From contig JAURHM010000022.1 in assembly GCA_030833315.1 (NCBI GenBank), forward strand, positions 1-48,605: DNA of 48,605 nt, read 5' to 3'. This DNA is from Burkholderiales bacterium. GTDB taxonomy: Bacteria; Pseudomonadota; Gammaproteobacteria; Burkholderiales; SG8-41. Positions 23,492 through 47,445 of this stretch are shown here, piece after piece. Each line of letters begins with the position of its first letter. The first letter of the stretch is position 1. Under the pieces are notes generated by a model, which worked only from the letters and a program-made list of their open reading frames with translations, did not search any database and was not told where the DNA came from. A program made the position numbers and the translations under genes.

Positions 23492-24508
23492 TCAGGCGTG
23501 TTTCACCGGGCGGATCGCCACGCCGTCATCGGTGATGCGGCGGTTAAGCAGGTTGGCGCAGGCCGCCACTACCGCCAGCGACGGCGTCGGAACACCGGTC
23601 ATCTGACCGAGTTCAATCAACACATTGATGATGGCATCCATCTCGAGCGGACGGCCGGCGCGCACGTCCTGCAGCGTCGAGGTCGGCAGCGATGCGCGTT
23701 TCGCCGCGTCGGCCACCCGTGCCTCGACATCAATGTCCATTTTCGTGCCCACGGCATTGGCCAGCGCCATCACCTCGCGCATCATCGCCACCGCCAGCGG
23801 CTTGGAACCGGCGAATTCAGCAACCTCGCGCGCGGTCGACTGGGTGATCGCACCCAGCGGATTCCACACCGCATTCGACAGCAGTTTGGTCCATTTGACC
23901 AGGCGCACATCGTTCGACACCTTGCCGGTCCAGCCGGCGCGGGTGGCGATATCGGCAATCGCCTGAACGCGCGGCGTCACCGTGTTGTCGATTTCGCCGA
24001 TGACCAGGGCGTCGGTATCGCCATCCGGCACGCGGATATGTCCGGGCGCGACCAGATCGGAAGGCTTCAGTGCCGTACCGCCAATGATCATCTGCGGTTC
24101 AAAAGTCCGCATCAGCACGCCGTCCGGATCCAGAGATTTCAGCTGCGCATCCTTGAACTTCGACGACACGCCCTGGAAATACCACCACGGGATGCCGTTC
24201 TGCGGGAATACCAATACGCCGTCCTTTTTCACCAGACTGCGCAGATGTTGCGCCACCGGTGCGATCTGCTGCGACTTCAGCGTCACGAACACCACGTCAT
24301 ACGGACCCTTCTCCTCGCCTGGCTTGCACACGCGCACCTTGATCGGATCGGGCACGCCGCTTTTCGGACCTTCGAGGATCAAACCGCGCGTCGTCAGCGC
24401 ATCGTATTGCGCGCCACGTGCCACCAGCGTCACATCCTCACCGGCGACCGTCAGACGACCGCCAAAAAAACCACCGATGGCGCCAGCGCCATAAACCAGA
24501 ATCTTCAT
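23492..24508 (-). CDS. Ketopantoate reductase (PanE/ApbA) family protein
   Basis: A 338-residue protein with an N-terminal Rossmann motif, ILVYGAGAIGGFFGGRL, for NADPH. LVKWTKLLSNAVWNPLGAI carries the catalytic Lys of 2-dehydropantoate 2-reductases, and a helical C-terminal domain contains GRPLEMDAI. At 338 residues it is slightly longer than E. coli PanE (about 300). It may make pantoate for coenzyme A or reduce another 2-oxo acid; PanE-like paralogues are common and not all work in pantothenate synthesis, so no gene symbol is given. It lies 84 nt downstream of the UGSC selenoprotein gene on the same strand, probably in the same operon. Confidence 0.88.
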   Translation of the reverse strand: MKILVYGAGAIGGFFGGRLTVAGEDVTLVARGAQYDALTTRGLILEGPKSGVPDPIKVRVCKPGEEKGPYDVVFVTLKSQQIAPVAQHLRSLVKKDGVLVFPQNGIPWWYFQGVSSKFKDAQLKSLDPDGVLMRTFEPQMIIGGTALKPSDLVAPGHIRVPDGDTDALVIGEIDNTVTPRVQAIADIATRAGWTGKVSNDVRLVKWTKLLSNAVWNPLGAITQSTAREVAEFAGSKPLAVAMMREVMALANAVGTKMDIDVEARVADAAKRASLPTSTLQDVRAGRPLEMDAIINVLIELGQMTGVPTPSLAVVAACANLLNRRITDDGVAIRPVKHA

Positions 24509-24592
24509 TGATATTCCCGGGTTGAGTTACAGAGTGCCGGCGCAATGCCCCGTCGGCGATAGATCATAAGTATTTGTTTTTATTAATTAATA

Positions 24593-25114
24593 TTAAGCGG
24601 TTAAACAGGCCAGCGCCGACTCGATCACGGCATCTGCCACGGCAGCCAGCTCAGCCGCCGTACGGTTCTGCACCGGGTGAGGAACATACACCACCGCCGG
24701 CTCAAAACCCAGCGCCCGGCTCTGCACGGCGACCGCATCACGGAACTCCGTCGTCACCACTGACACGCCGGGCAAACCGCGCTGATCAAAAGTCATCAGG
24801 TCGTGCAGACTGCACGACGTGCATGACCCTCAATCCGAGAGCCCGATCAACACCACATCGGCTTCACTGACCACCTTGTCGACGATTTCCTTCGAAGCAA
24901 CCTTGGCATTGGTCGGTTTGCCGAAGCGTTTGGTATTGATGCCGCGCTCCCCCATACGCTGTTCGATCCGGTTCAGGAATTCATCACTGCGTGTCTTGCC
25001 GATATCGAACAGGCCCACGGTCAGGCCTTCCAGCGTCCTTGGCGGCGCACGCCTTGCCCGCATCACCGCTCCGGTTTCCGCGGTCGGATCGCGCATCCAA
25101 TTCATCGTGCTCAT
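24593..25114 (-). CDS. UGSC-type selenoprotein (in-frame TGA read as selenocysteine)
   Basis: Reading TGA 24830-24832 as Sec joins two open stretches in one frame into a 173-residue protein with Sec95. The sequence around it is VVLIGLSD-Sec-GSCTSCSLHD, the motif of the UGSC family known from marine metagenomes (recalled). The N-terminal half is a Rossmann-like domain (GLTVGLFDIGKTRSDEF), and the C-terminal half reads LPGVSVVTTEFRD, then VVYVPHPVQNRTAAEL. A hairpin lies just after the TGA (24792-24827). The start overlaps the stop of the upstream partner-fusion gene (ATGA at 25111-25114). The Sec-Gly-Ser-Cys array looks like a redox centre; a Sec-x-x-Cys array also occurs in glycine reductase GrdB, but relationship to it is speculation. 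The true stop is TAA 24593-24595. The reaction is unknown. Confidence 0.88.
24792..24827 (-). promoter_or_regulatory. Putative bacterial SECIS element, UGSC gene 1
   Basis: Immediately 3' of the TGA at 24830-24832 the message folds as an outer stem GTCAT/ATGAC, an internal loop, then a perfect inner stem GTCGTGC/GCACGAC closed by the loop AGUCU. The loop starts 18 nt after the TGA and has G at its second position, within the spacing and sequence limits described for bacterial SECIS elements. The apex GCAGTCTGC closely resembles the apex of the E. coli fdhF SECIS (GCAGGTCTGC, recalled). It would bind SelB. Confidence 0.8.
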
Positions 25115-26562
25115 TCCTTGATCTCCTTGGTCACGGGTTGCAGTTCGGTACGGCTGCGGCCAGCCAGCCAGCCCGGCAGGATCGCCGAGAACAGTCCGGC
25201 AGCACCACCGGCACGCACCACCATCAATGCATCTTCATGAAACTTCGGCACCTGCTCACCGGCACGGCTGGCCGGTATGCCCTCGCCCACGCCATCCGCA
25301 CCGGCAACCAGTTCTGCGCCGGGTCTGATGGTTGCCTCGTACAGTGCACGTTCAATTCGCGCGCGGTCCCAGCCAGCTTCACGGTAAATGCCGTAATGCT
25401 CCGGCGACAGCACCAGCACCGCACGTGCCGACTGCACCAGCCTGGGATGGCCGATATTCACCAGCGACATCGCGAACGATTTCGTCAACGCTTCGGGCGT
25501 GCGTGATTTCTGGTCGACAAACGCCTCGGGACCGTGCCCCTGGAACAGCGTCACCGCGGACTTGCCCGGCGCAATGCCGCGCGCCTGCGCCAGCGGCTGC
25601 CAGGCCGGATCGGATTCATCTTCGGCAAAACACAGTGTGAATTTGCTCGGTGCGCCCAGCGTTGCACGGTCCACTTCTCCCGGACGGCCACCGCCGACAT
25701 TGCGCACGATCAGATTCAGCGCACGACCGATGGTGGCGTTGGCGCGATTGCCCTGACCCAGCGCATTGATGCCGCTGTTCATGCCGATACGCTTGACGAT
25801 CGGGCCGTTGACGATGATCACCGGCGACGAGAAATACGTGGTTGCCAGCACGCCATGCAGCGTGAACACCGGCTCCAGTGCCGCCTCGATTGCCGCCAGC
25901 AGCACCGGCATATATTCCGGTTTGCAACCGGCCATCACCGCATTGATGGTGACTTTTTCGACCGTGCATTCGGCAAGATTCGGCGGAATGCGACCGACAA
26001 TCTCGTCGGGCTTGCGCGAAGTACCTTTGAGCATCGCGATCACCCGTTCGTCAGTCGGTGGCGTGACCGGCAGGCCGTCGGTCCAGCCGAGCTCGTAACA
26101 GACTTCGGCCGGATCGATGTTTTCGCCGTATTCCACCTTGCGCGCTGCGAGCCATGTGGCGCCGCTGTGTTTGGCTTCCAGCTTCTCGGCCACCCCGGGC
26201 TCGAGTGAACGCGACCCTCATCCCGGCCGCAATACCGGCAGATGCACGCCGAGGTCGGCAATACCGGTCAGGCGCTGCCAGCCGGCGCGGTCCCAGCCGA
26301 CGACGCGCTCGACTTCACGGCCGCCCTGATAACGGATCAGCGTCGGCATGGATTCAATATTGTTTCTCCACGACCAGCCGAGTTCACGGTCATCAATCAC
26401 GCCGGTCACACCCGCAGGGAACTGCGGATCATCCTGCGATACAACACGGAAATCACGGCACTCGGCAGCCGCACGACGCATTTCATTTTCAATCAGCACG
26501 CAGGTTTCGCAGGCGCGCTTGGCAAACACGACCAGGCCGTCGCGGATCAATGAATCAGACAA
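25111..26562 (-). CDS. Thioredoxin-like/partner-domain fusion selenoprotein (in-frame TGA)
   Basis: One frame runs from a TTG start at 26562 (GGAGG 6 nt upstream) to TGA 25111, interrupted only by TGA 26218-26220. Read as Sec115 it gives 483 residues. Residues 1-105 are thioredoxin-like: VVFAKRACETC with a CxxC (C18, C21), and MPTLIRYQGG with the cis-Pro. The junction is VLRPG-Sec-GSRSLEPG. Residues 124-483 form the partner domain also encoded alone at 45641-46753: DGLPVTPPTDERV, NAVMAGCKPEYMP (C213) and NSGINALGQGNRANATIGRA. I recall Cys-containing homologues with a CGS at this junction, which would support Sec. The alternative is two genes, the second from GTG 26193, but that GTG has no convincing ribosome-binding site. 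The reaction is unknown; a thiol/selenol redox role is inferred. Confidence 0.8.
26185..26205 (-). promoter_or_regulatory. Putative bacterial SECIS element, fusion selenoprotein
   Basis: Downstream of the TGA at 26218-26220 the message can fold as CTCG/CGAG and GCC/GGC, with one bulged A, closed by the loop CGGGGU. The loop begins 20 nt after the TGA and has G at its second position, as expected for a bacterial SECIS. The stem is shorter than in the two UGSC genes, so this is the least certain of the three. Confidence 0.55.
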
Positions 26563-26625
26563 CAGGCGCCTCCGGAATTGTTGCAGTTGGGTGAATCGCC
26601 TCTCATTCTGCTACGCTAATCGCCC

Positions 26626-26820
26626 ATGCTCAACCCTGAAAAAACCTGCCGGCTTCAGTTCATCCTGTTGATTGCGGCCCTGACGGCTTGCGCGCCGCTG
26701 GAATGGCACCAATCCGGCGCATCGCCGGACTCGGAAGGTTTTGCACAGGAACAGGACCTGATGCGCCGCTGCATGCAGAATCAGGGTTATATCCTGCAGA
26801 CCAAACCGCAATCCCCGTGA
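26626..26820 (+). CDS. Small putative lipoprotein
   Basis: A 64-residue protein with a type II signal peptide: a basic start, the hydrophobic core LQFILLIAALTAC and a lipobox LTAC with the lipidated Cys near residue 22. The remaining 40 residues are polar, with a QEQDLMRRCMQNQGYIL segment that could be helical and contains one further Cys. It diverges from the fusion selenoprotein gene by about 60 nt and ends 6 nt before the next aldo/keto reductase gene, so the two are probably co-transcribed. Function unknown. Confidence 0.72.
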   Translation: MLNPEKTCRLQFILLIAALTACAPLEWHQSGASPDSEGFAQEQDLMRRCMQNQGYILQTKPQSP

Positions 26821-45640: not shown

Positions 45641-46753
45641 TCAACGTCGCCTGAAATCCCCCACCGACTTCGCCAGACGGCCATCCGCGGTTTTCAGCGC
45701 ACGCGTCACCGGCAAGGTCGCACCGAAGGTCGGCACAAAAGCCGAATGTTTGCCGGCGCCGCCGATGACGGCCAGCAGAATGTCTTCCGGTTTCTGCACG
45801 GCATACATCAGATCTTCCGGCTTGGGATTGGCCAGCCGATCCTTGAAGGTGACCTTGATCCGCCGCTCGATATTGTCTTTGGAGAAGCGGCCGACCGGCA
45901 GTGTCGCATGCTGATGCAGAAAACGTTTGGCTTCCGCTTTTGAATATTTCGCGGCAACAGCCCTGGCATGCTCCGGACCCATGATCACCAGCGGCTGCGC
46001 CTTGTAATACACATCGTTTGAGCCGGTGGTACACATCGTGCCGGCAATGGTGGTCAGCACGCCCTCGCCGTCGAGACTCTCATGATCGTTGACGTTATGC
46101 AGGCACTCCGCACCGATCACGGTCACCGCGCTGGCCTCGCGCGGCAGGCCGCGTTCGACATGCAGCGGCTCCCAGGGGTTCTCCGCCTCGTTCTCCGCAA
46201 CCAGATAGCTGTATTTCGCCGGCGAGCCGAAAGTCGACATATCGCCGAGCGCCGGAATCGCACCGCCGATATTGAGCAGCGCCAGACGGATCGCGCGGCC
46301 GATGGAGGCGTTGGCGCGGTGTCCGGGGCCGAAGGCATTGTGGCCGCTATTGATGTTGAGTTCCTTAGCCACCGGACCGTTGACGATGACCAGCGGCGCG
46401 CAAAGATGCGTCGTCGCCTGAACGCCATATAGATTCAGCGGTTCCTCGCACATCGCTTCGATGGCCAGCATGTACAGCGGGAAATAACGCGGCTCGCAGC
46501 CCGCCATCACCGCGTTCGCCGCCAGGCGCAGCGGCGTCGCCTCACCCCAACGTGGCGGGATTTTGGCGATCGGCTGATCCCAGGGACGGTCACAGTATTC
46601 CAGCATGGCCGCGACACGCTCCTCGGTCGGCGGCACCACCGGCAGGCCATCACCCCAGCCTTTTTCCATGACCATCGCATTGACGGCATCAAAGTCACCG
46701 TCGGCCTCGATGCTCATGCCCGGCGCCTGCAGCATCTGCGCGAGCTTGCTCAT
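45641..46753 (-). CDS. Partner protein of UGSC selenoprotein (stand-alone form)
   Basis: A 370-residue protein homologous to the C-terminal domain of the fusion selenoprotein at 25111-26562. Shared blocks are DGLPVVPPTEERVAAML, NAVMAGCEPRYFPLYMLAIEA (conserved C86), PLVIVNGPVAKELNINSGHNAFGPGHRANASIGRA and an AExE-x-PWEPL segment. It has no thioredoxin domain and no Sec. The start ATG overlaps the stop of the UGSC gene upstream (ATGA at 46750-46753), so the two products are made together and probably form a complex. The conserved Cys could pair with the Sec of its neighbour; this is inference. I do not know a characterised function for the family. Confidence 0.85.
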   Translation of the reverse strand: MSKLAQMLQAPGMSIEADGDFDAVNAMVMEKGWGDGLPVVPPTEERVAAMLEYCDRPWDQPIAKIPPRWGEATPLRLAANAVMAGCEPRYFPLYMLAIEAMCEEPLNLYGVQATTHLCAPLVIVNGPVAKELNINSGHNAFGPGHRANASIGRAIRLALLNIGGAIPALGDMSTFGSPAKYSYLVAENEAENPWEPLHVERGLPREASAVTVIGAECLHNVNDHESLDGEGVLTTIAGTMCTTGSNDVYYKAQPLVIMGPEHARAVAAKYSKAEAKRFLHQHATLPVGRFSKDNIERRIKVTFKDRLANPKPEDLMYAVQKPEDILLAVIGGAGKHSAFVPTFGATLPVTRALKTADGRLAKSVGDFRRR

Positions 46754-47289
46754 TGCGAATTCTCCTTCAGCAGCTTCACGAATTGCGGCACTGCATGGTC
46801 GGCGCGCGCCCTGACCTGATCGATGGCCAGACCGCCAAGCGGGTGCGGGATCTCGATGAGTGGCAGATCAGGAACACCGAATACGCGTGCCTGTGACTGC
46901 CCCAATTTGAGGAAGGGACCAGAAACAATGACCGCAGTGGTCAAACCGCGTTTACGCAGGGTCGACATGTCGTGGACACTCCACGACGTGCACGACCCTC
47001 AATCACCCATTGCGGAGAGGACATAATCCGATTCCGCAGCGAGTTGATCAAGAATGGCAGCGGGAGCCGGCAGGCTGACACTGTCCTTGCGCAAGGCCAC
47101 GACCGAGGCCACCGGCAGCAGCGCCTTGACGCCTTCGACGATGAAGCGCAGCAGATGGTCGGCATTGCCCTTGCTGTTATCGAGGATACCGAGGCGGATA
47201 CCGCCCTTGGCAACAGCGCGAGCCTCGGTTACCGCAACGGCCTGCGGCGACGGCGCTTCCGGAATCACCAAACGGATTTTCTGAATCAT
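46750..47289 (-). CDS. UGSC-type selenoprotein (in-frame TGA read as selenocysteine)
   Basis: Reading TGA 46999-47001 as Sec joins two open stretches of one frame into 179 residues with Sec97: YVLSAMGD-Sec-GSCTSWSVHD. It is the paralogue of the protein at 24593-25114, sharing the Rossmann-like start (IRLGILDNSKGNADHLL), the UGSC array, VHD after it, and a C-terminal IPHPLGG that matches VPHPVQN. The ATG at 47289 has GGGAG 6 nt upstream. A long hairpin follows the TGA directly. It is the first gene of a two-gene operon with the partner protein. The sense codons on both sides keep family resemblance, which argues against a pseudogene. Confidence 0.9.
46959..46998 (-). promoter_or_regulatory. 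Putative bacterial SECIS element, UGSC gene 2
   Basis: Directly after the TGA the message forms an outer stem GGGTCG/CGACCC, an internal loop and a perfect 8-bp inner stem GTCGTGGA/TCCACGAC closed by GUG. The loop begins 19 nt after the TGA with G in first position. The structure spans 40 nt and is the strongest of the three SECIS candidates. Confidence 0.85.
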
Positions 47290-47445
47290 GTTAACTCCCG
47301 ATGCTGGATACAAAAGATTCTGCATTTACCGAAAACTACCGGCGAATCTAACCCATGAACCCGGTCGGGGCAATGCGATGAATCAGAGCAGGCATACCCG
47401 CAGTCCAGATAACGGAAAATTACATAACAGGGATACCCCGAGCCG

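Follow-up and report, generated by a model that had tools for sequence, protein, structure and literature searches.

A predicted selenocysteine hinge joins a thioredoxin-like domain to a UGSC-partner domain in a Burkholderiales selenoprotein

Results

The window, i.e. the whole 48,605-nucleotide stretch of Burkholderiales DNA analysed here, carries on its reverse strand a gene for a predicted fusion selenoprotein of 483 residues (25111-26562), which begins at a TTG codon and in the ORF translation contains a single internal stop, TGA at codon 115 (26220-26218), before its terminal TGA. A sequence-only reading had described this frame, from TTG 26562 to 25111, as broken by one TGA at 26218, and this is borne out, 26218 being the last base of the codon. 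Upstream of the TGA lies a thioredoxin-like domain (residues 1-114, 26221-26562, reverse strand), with C18 and C21 in a CETC motif and a conserved P73-T74, and downstream, on the same strand, a UGSC-partner domain (25114-26217) with Cys213 (in MAGC) and Cys311. The TGA itself (26218-26220, reverse strand) would place Sec115 between the two in the motif PG-U-GS. The terminal TGA shares bases with the ATG of the next gene in an ATGA overlap. This reverse-strand neighbour (24593-25114) encodes a UGSC selenoprotein with its Sec at TGA 24832-24830 and its own hairpin GUCGUGCAGUCUGCACGAC after that codon; it scores 126.4 bits against PF24696 (cut-off 25) and 120.9 bits against NF041046, just below the cut-off of 125.

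A second pair of related genes is present in the window in reverse order, UGSC (47325-46750) then partner (46753-45641). This UGSC selenoprotein gene (46750-47325, reverse strand, TGA 47001-46999) scores 147.9 bits against PF24696 and 125.7 against NF041046 (cut-off 125). Its neighbour (45641-46753, reverse strand) encodes a free-standing UGSC-partner protein of 370 residues with no thioredoxin domain; it is homologous to the C-terminal part of the fusion, in agreement with the earlier statement that the downstream domain also exists alone at 45641. The string TGA-GGG-TC is indeed common to the fusion and both UGSC genes (TGA starts 24832 and 47001), as had been remarked, but GGG is not fixed in the relatives of the fusion, and the three-way match is therefore partly chance.

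The thioredoxin part falls below the Pfam cut-off (17.2 bits against 27, PF00085/PF13098). When the family profile was compared with the PDB at E<=1, all 44 distinct sequences found were named thioredoxin (best E 0.0012), matching over the first 100 or so profile positions, and these thioredoxin-only matches together with the weak Pfam matches are in line with a CETC thioredoxin-like domain upstream of the TGA. For the partner part Pfam gives nothing at E<=1, NCBIfam only a chance-level best match (E 0.14) and the PDB nothing, and neither the fusion nor its parts match PF24696 or NF041046.

A collection of species genomes scanned with the read-through protein yielded at least 581 relatives among at least 585 pattern matches; the analysis went on with the best 80 of these relatives, so that distant forms are under-sampled. 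The alignments of all 80 cross the junction in one frame, and among the 81 aligned rows (the window plus these best 80 of at least 581) codon 115 is TGA in 18, TGC in 61 and TGT in two. The search for continuous Cys homologues proposed in the sequence-only reading thus returns an ordinary Cys codon at the TGA position in 63 of 81 rows, and its contrary case, in which homologues would all be split at the stop, fails, as every kept relative runs through. Residues 18, 21, 115, 213 and 311 are Cys or Sec in all 81 rows (the 80 relatives kept and the window). L028, a Cys row, contains a TAG at another point of the frame. The Cys form is present in Reyranella aquatilis KCTC 52223 and Noviherbaspirillum galbum 17J57-3. 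In seven comparisons dN/dS was 0.13-0.28 upstream of the TGA and 0.08-0.13 downstream.

Within the window's own family, among the matches listed, the fusion occurs in 43 of 74 genomes, one copy each, 38 of them with the TGA and five without a stop; one (G052) has a TAA besides the TGA, and three (G017, G027, G056) are partial. A wide draw of 398 genomes contained the fusion in two, the window's own included (E<=1e-150). A truncated fusion (L138, G034:C13:69470-69883) ends shortly past the Sec hairpin, where a palindromic repeat and unrelated sequence take over.

The hairpin in question, CUCG-a-GCC-[CGGGGU]-GGC-CGAG, lies at 26185-26205 on the reverse strand, at positions 16-36 after the TGA. 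The earlier description of a hairpin with loop CGGGGU 20 nt past the TGA holds, and all seven pairs are formed in the window. Seven pairs are likewise present in 24 of the 25 other Sec rows, i.e. in 25 of 26 altogether, with six in the remaining row (L015); alignment A3 comprises 23 of these 26, three loci in reverse orientation being left out. The complete hairpin is found in none of the 63 Cys rows, three of which have six pairs (L024, L058, L067) and 44 three or four. The Cys rows nearest the window have one pair (L103, on the same contig as L010) and none (L104, genome G029). Random synonymous recoding gave seven pairs in 0.4% of cases for the window and in a mean of 1.75% over 18 Sec rows (maximum 6.1%), rows which are not independent of one another. 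Synonymous choice in the Sec rows is most uniform at codons 120-126 (0.96 against a mean of 0.696), which rank first among windows of seven informative columns. Several Cys rows show a similar stretch merely from coding VEPGxAE, and the hairpin could therefore have arisen there by few changes.

Bacterial SECIS elements are defined in the available part of PMC13188914 by a loop of 3-9 nt, a stem of 4-16 bp, a G in the first two loop positions, a distance of 16-37 nt from the UGA and an MFE of -7.5 or below. The hairpin lies within these limits, its loop measuring 6 nt with a G in second place, its stem 7 bp interrupted by one bulge, and its distance to the UGA 20 nt; the 38-nt segment, also containing a second small hairpin, gives -10.2 kcal/mol. 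The 42-nt RNA starting at the TGA folds no better than its shuffles (z +1.23), its MFE structure being a different hairpin, and covariation is slight, one pair having changed on both sides (L012), which was equalled in 71 of 500 shuffles. No SECIS was matched by Rfam, either across the window at gathering thresholds or in 24500-26700 at E<=5. In the selenoprotein reading the hairpin 26205-26185 would guide decoding of the UGA.

The machinery for Sec insertion is encoded in the same genome (G000, 98% complete), where SelA, SelB, SelD and tRNA-Sec all score over cut-off and selA, selB and tRNA-Sec lie within 5.1 kb (C3:37648-42702). Since the tRNA-Sec cut-off alone is unspecific, being passed by five of 14 control genomes, the tRNA score of 75.9 bits and the adjoining selAB genes weigh more. 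Among the matches listed, tRNA-Sec is over cut-off in 68 of the 74 family genomes, and only three of the 38 genomes with a TGA fusion are without a strong hit (G003, G017 and G052, 86, 79 and 72% complete). The selD gene (G000:C51:34571-35500) has an in-frame TGA, the selenophosphate synthetase being itself a predicted selenoprotein.

In a tree of the 81 fusions the 18 Sec rows and one Cys row, L010, together make up a clade of 19 (SH-aLRT 99), which takes two changes at residue 115. The Sec clade is betaproteobacterial and nested among Cys rows. Alignment A1 holds 72 of the 81 fusions, near-copies or similar rows (L021, L029, L031, L032, L037, L057, L062, L079) and the TAG-containing L028 being left out. 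A second tree combined 71 of the 81 fusions with an outgroup of 30 free-standing partner rows, namely the 29 distinct genes behind 34 hits and the window partner gene, which repeats one of them. The fusions are monophyletic in it (SH-aLRT 100), with the Sec rows once more inside the Cys rows. The Cys fusions of G039, G043, G005 and G029 are under those handles in neither tree. Most likely, to judge from these trees, the Sec form arose once, by a Cys-to-Sec gain in one betaproteobacterial lineage, and the position of L010 suggests, as the simplest history with one gain, a single reversion to Cys inside the Sec clade. Alternatively, the ancestor may have had Sec and lost it several times independently, a history compatible with an outgroup that has no residue 115. 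The L010 genome (G026) and G029, near Cys relatives, have strong tRNA-Sec hits.

The fusion gene is usually paired with one for UGSC. A same-strand UGSC gene lies downstream in 74 of the 80 loci (best 80 of at least 581 relatives), with a TGA in 71 of the 74; it follows every one of the 63 Cys fusions, the codon being TGA in 60, TGC in two and undetermined in one (L072). No UGSC gene was found within 1.3-4 kb downstream in six of 17 Sec loci (L015, L017, L018, L020, L021, L048). At two loci (L046, L056) Cys replaces Sec in both the fusion and the adjoining UGSC gene. A UGSC motif lies within 420 nt of 71 fusions, and 54 of these have a stop that shares bases with an NTGA start in frame with UGSC (ATGA in 49); this stricter count was used in preference to a looser one, NTGA in 64 of 81 rows, which is often expected by chance. 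All 74 family genomes have both a partner or fusion match and a UGSC match, and in two loci (L148, L149, from G006 and G007) UGSC and partner are fused as one chain in that order. Long open frames around other UGSC matches suggest further fusions of this kind. The window's genome, of 3.1 Mb, has twelve partner or fusion matches, including the fusion, and ten UGSC matches, all with TGA, so that it would have several UGSC-partner pairs, perhaps of different substrate range.

Among 34 free-standing partner hits (29 distinct genes, two genomes) Cys213 is present in 33 and Cys311 in 25. A shared active site would more likely use Cys213, the commoner of the two in free-standing partners, while C18, C21 and Sec115 belong to the fusion. 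On the UGSC side, alignment A4 comprises 39 proteins (the two window genes and 37 of 73 located locus genes), of which 33 are matched by the GrdB model TIGR01917 with E<=0.1, the best value being 1.4e-5 and the scores well short of the GrdB cut-offs. The window UGSC gene adjoining the fusion matches positions 321-420 of this 431-position profile with E 2e-4 and 20.4 bits against a cut-off of 602.2. The UGSC profile found one hit in the PDB, at chance level (E 0.54). Flanking-ORF clustering was swamped by antisense frames, and a simple GC3-based gene choice was used in its place; the ten neighbour genes scanned belong to varied families and name no substrate.

In one genome of the window family (G049, a 5.7 Mb MAG, 98% complete and with 2% contamination) there are 58 UGSC matches, 54 with TGA. 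Three of the TGA-containing matches also have a TAA or TAG, some are fragments, and strain co-assembly is possible; this single family by itself approaches the largest bacterial selenoproteomes, of 57 and 63 genes, given in the accessible part of PMC13188914. The pattern TGAGGNTCNTGY was also matched once away from a recognisable UGSC gene (L053:6503, forward strand), and the pattern alone is no evidence.

Discussion

We regard it as very likely, from comparison of sequences, that the gene 26562-25111 encodes one 483-residue selenoprotein in which TGA 26220-26218 is decoded as Sec. The proposal of a CxxC and a Sec in a single chain, already made in the sequence-only reading, is strengthened by the read-through homologues, the Sec machinery, the hairpin of the TGA rows and the low dN/dS on both sides. 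That the locus instead holds two genes, a 114-residue thioredoxin-like protein ending at a true UGA and a partner starting at the GTG at 26193, seems very improbable. This codon, GTG124, is present in all 18 Sec rows and would yield a protein of 360 residues, near the 370 of the free-standing partner, but it sits within the conserved hairpin, which can explain its conservation, and of the 63 Cys rows just 25 have a start-capable codon at this place. The Shine-Dalgarno-like match of the GTG extends over no more than 3 nt in 17 of 18 Sec rows and is absent from L012, and an independent start there, which the sequence-only reading had put forward for checking, is largely rejected; the 63 of 81 rows that read through with Cys and the full Sec machinery also speak against a division into two genes. 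The same GTG could serve a selenium switch, such that with selenium the fused protein would be made, and without it the UGA stop would free the thioredoxin-like protein while GTG124 re-initiates a free partner. We give this an outside chance: a GTG just past the UGA in every Sec row and free-standing partners in the same genome fit it, while the membership of the codon in the hairpin, the weakness of the Shine-Dalgarno-like match and the predominance of Cys relatives (63 of 81 rows), unable to switch in this way, do not. An assembly error or a decaying pseudogene, of which the truncated remnant in one relative (G034) might be a sign, is scarcely credible given that 18 rows, taken from different records, share the position of the TGA and that dN/dS is low on either side of it.

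For the selenoprotein itself, a direct role of Sec115 is the main alternative to a relay. Here Sec115 would act in peroxidase-like fashion on a hydroperoxide, disulfide or electrophile and be recycled by the thioredoxin CxxC, UGSC being a co-expressed neighbour with a reaction of its own. A CxxC and a Sec in one chain and the lack of a UGSC gene over 1.3-4 kb downstream in six of 17 Sec loci are compatible with such a role, which is nonetheless unlikely in view of the UGSC gene downstream in 74 of the best 80 loci (of at least 581), the stop/start overlap in 54 of 71 and the single UGSC-partner chains of L148 and L149. We consider it rather more probable that fusion and UGSC form a two-subunit enzyme with a relay from CxxC to Sec115 to the active site, the relay by itself being a reasoned guess with slightly less than an even chance of being right.

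In this two-subunit scheme SelB and tRNA-Sec would decode UGA 26220-26218, guided by the hairpin 26205-26185, and the fusion would combine with the UGSC selenoprotein from the directly downstream gene. We infer complex formation, the electron path and a reductive chemistry as follows. UGSC would bring a GrdB-like Sec and the partner Cys213; on the model of GrdB, attack on the substrate would come from the UGSC Sec, assisted by Cys213, and leave this Sec oxidised. Electrons would enter at the thioredoxin CxxC and pass to Sec115 on its Gly-flanked hinge (PG-U-GS), which would re-reduce the partner/UGSC active site at each turnover, making the fusion a built-in reductant. The specific form with two seleniums, in which the thioredoxin CxxC charges the hinge Sec and this re-reduces the GrdB-like UGSC Sec bound to partner, is put forward only tentatively.

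The fusion resembles several known systems and differs from each. UGSC selenoproteins (PF24696, NF041046), its operon partner, likewise have Sec followed by Gly-Ser, but within the UGSC domain, whereas the Sec of the fusion is in a hinge after the thioredoxin-like domain. GrdB, the selenoprotein B of glycine/sarcosine/betaine reductase (TIGR01917), is weakly resembled in its C-terminal region, the part that holds the GrdB Sec, by UGSC, and the partner domain has no significant match in Pfam or NCBIfam. With the thioredoxin family (PF00085/PF13098) the fusion shares an N-terminal CxxC and a conserved Pro-Thr, but it remains below the Pfam cut-offs, its motif is CETC or CPTC rather than the usual CGPC, and its Sec is outside the CxxC. 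In mammalian thioredoxin reductase a Gly-flanked Sec beside dithiol redox centres acts as a swinging arm; this is an unrelated protein, and the Gly-flanked hinge Sec offers a possible mechanical analogy only. The UxxC thioredoxin selenoproteins tabulated in the available part of PMC13188914 differ in having Sec within the motif.

The Trx-PGUGS-partner protein is absent from the table of 119 selenoprotein families, UGSC included, in the accessible part of this 2026 review (PMC13188914), NCBIfam has no model for it (June 2026), and the deep-Sep paper, in its available part, names other families. A literature search gave no paper on such a fusion among the matches listed, Haft and Tolstoy 2025 being outside its coverage. 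The fusion thus appears to be a selenoprotein family unnamed in the available family lists. UGSC itself was among the largest selenoprotein families in the 2008 ocean (GOS) survey, with 255 sequences, and a 'UGSC/Unknown_1' fusion is named in the accessible part of that paper (PMC2398784); the UGSC-partner single chain of L148 and L149 may be this protein.

Ordinary gene callers probably split the fusion gene in two. Read as one, it offers a natural Cys-to-Sec series, with partial hairpins in Cys forms, full hairpins in Sec forms and close Cys relatives that are hairpin-less yet tRNA-Sec-bearing. It also gives a handle on the function of UGSC by indicating a partner domain with a conserved Cys and a likely reductant, and as the Cys form occurs in the two named strains, R. 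aquatilis KCTC 52223 and N. galbum 17J57-3, the system may be testable. Were the two-selenium relay true, the fusion would serve as the dedicated reductant and represent one catalytic variant within a Sec enzyme family that is very large and uncharacterised, and Sec115 would be a Cys-to-Sec gain whose SECIS hairpin arose within an already conserved coding motif, SxEPGxAE.
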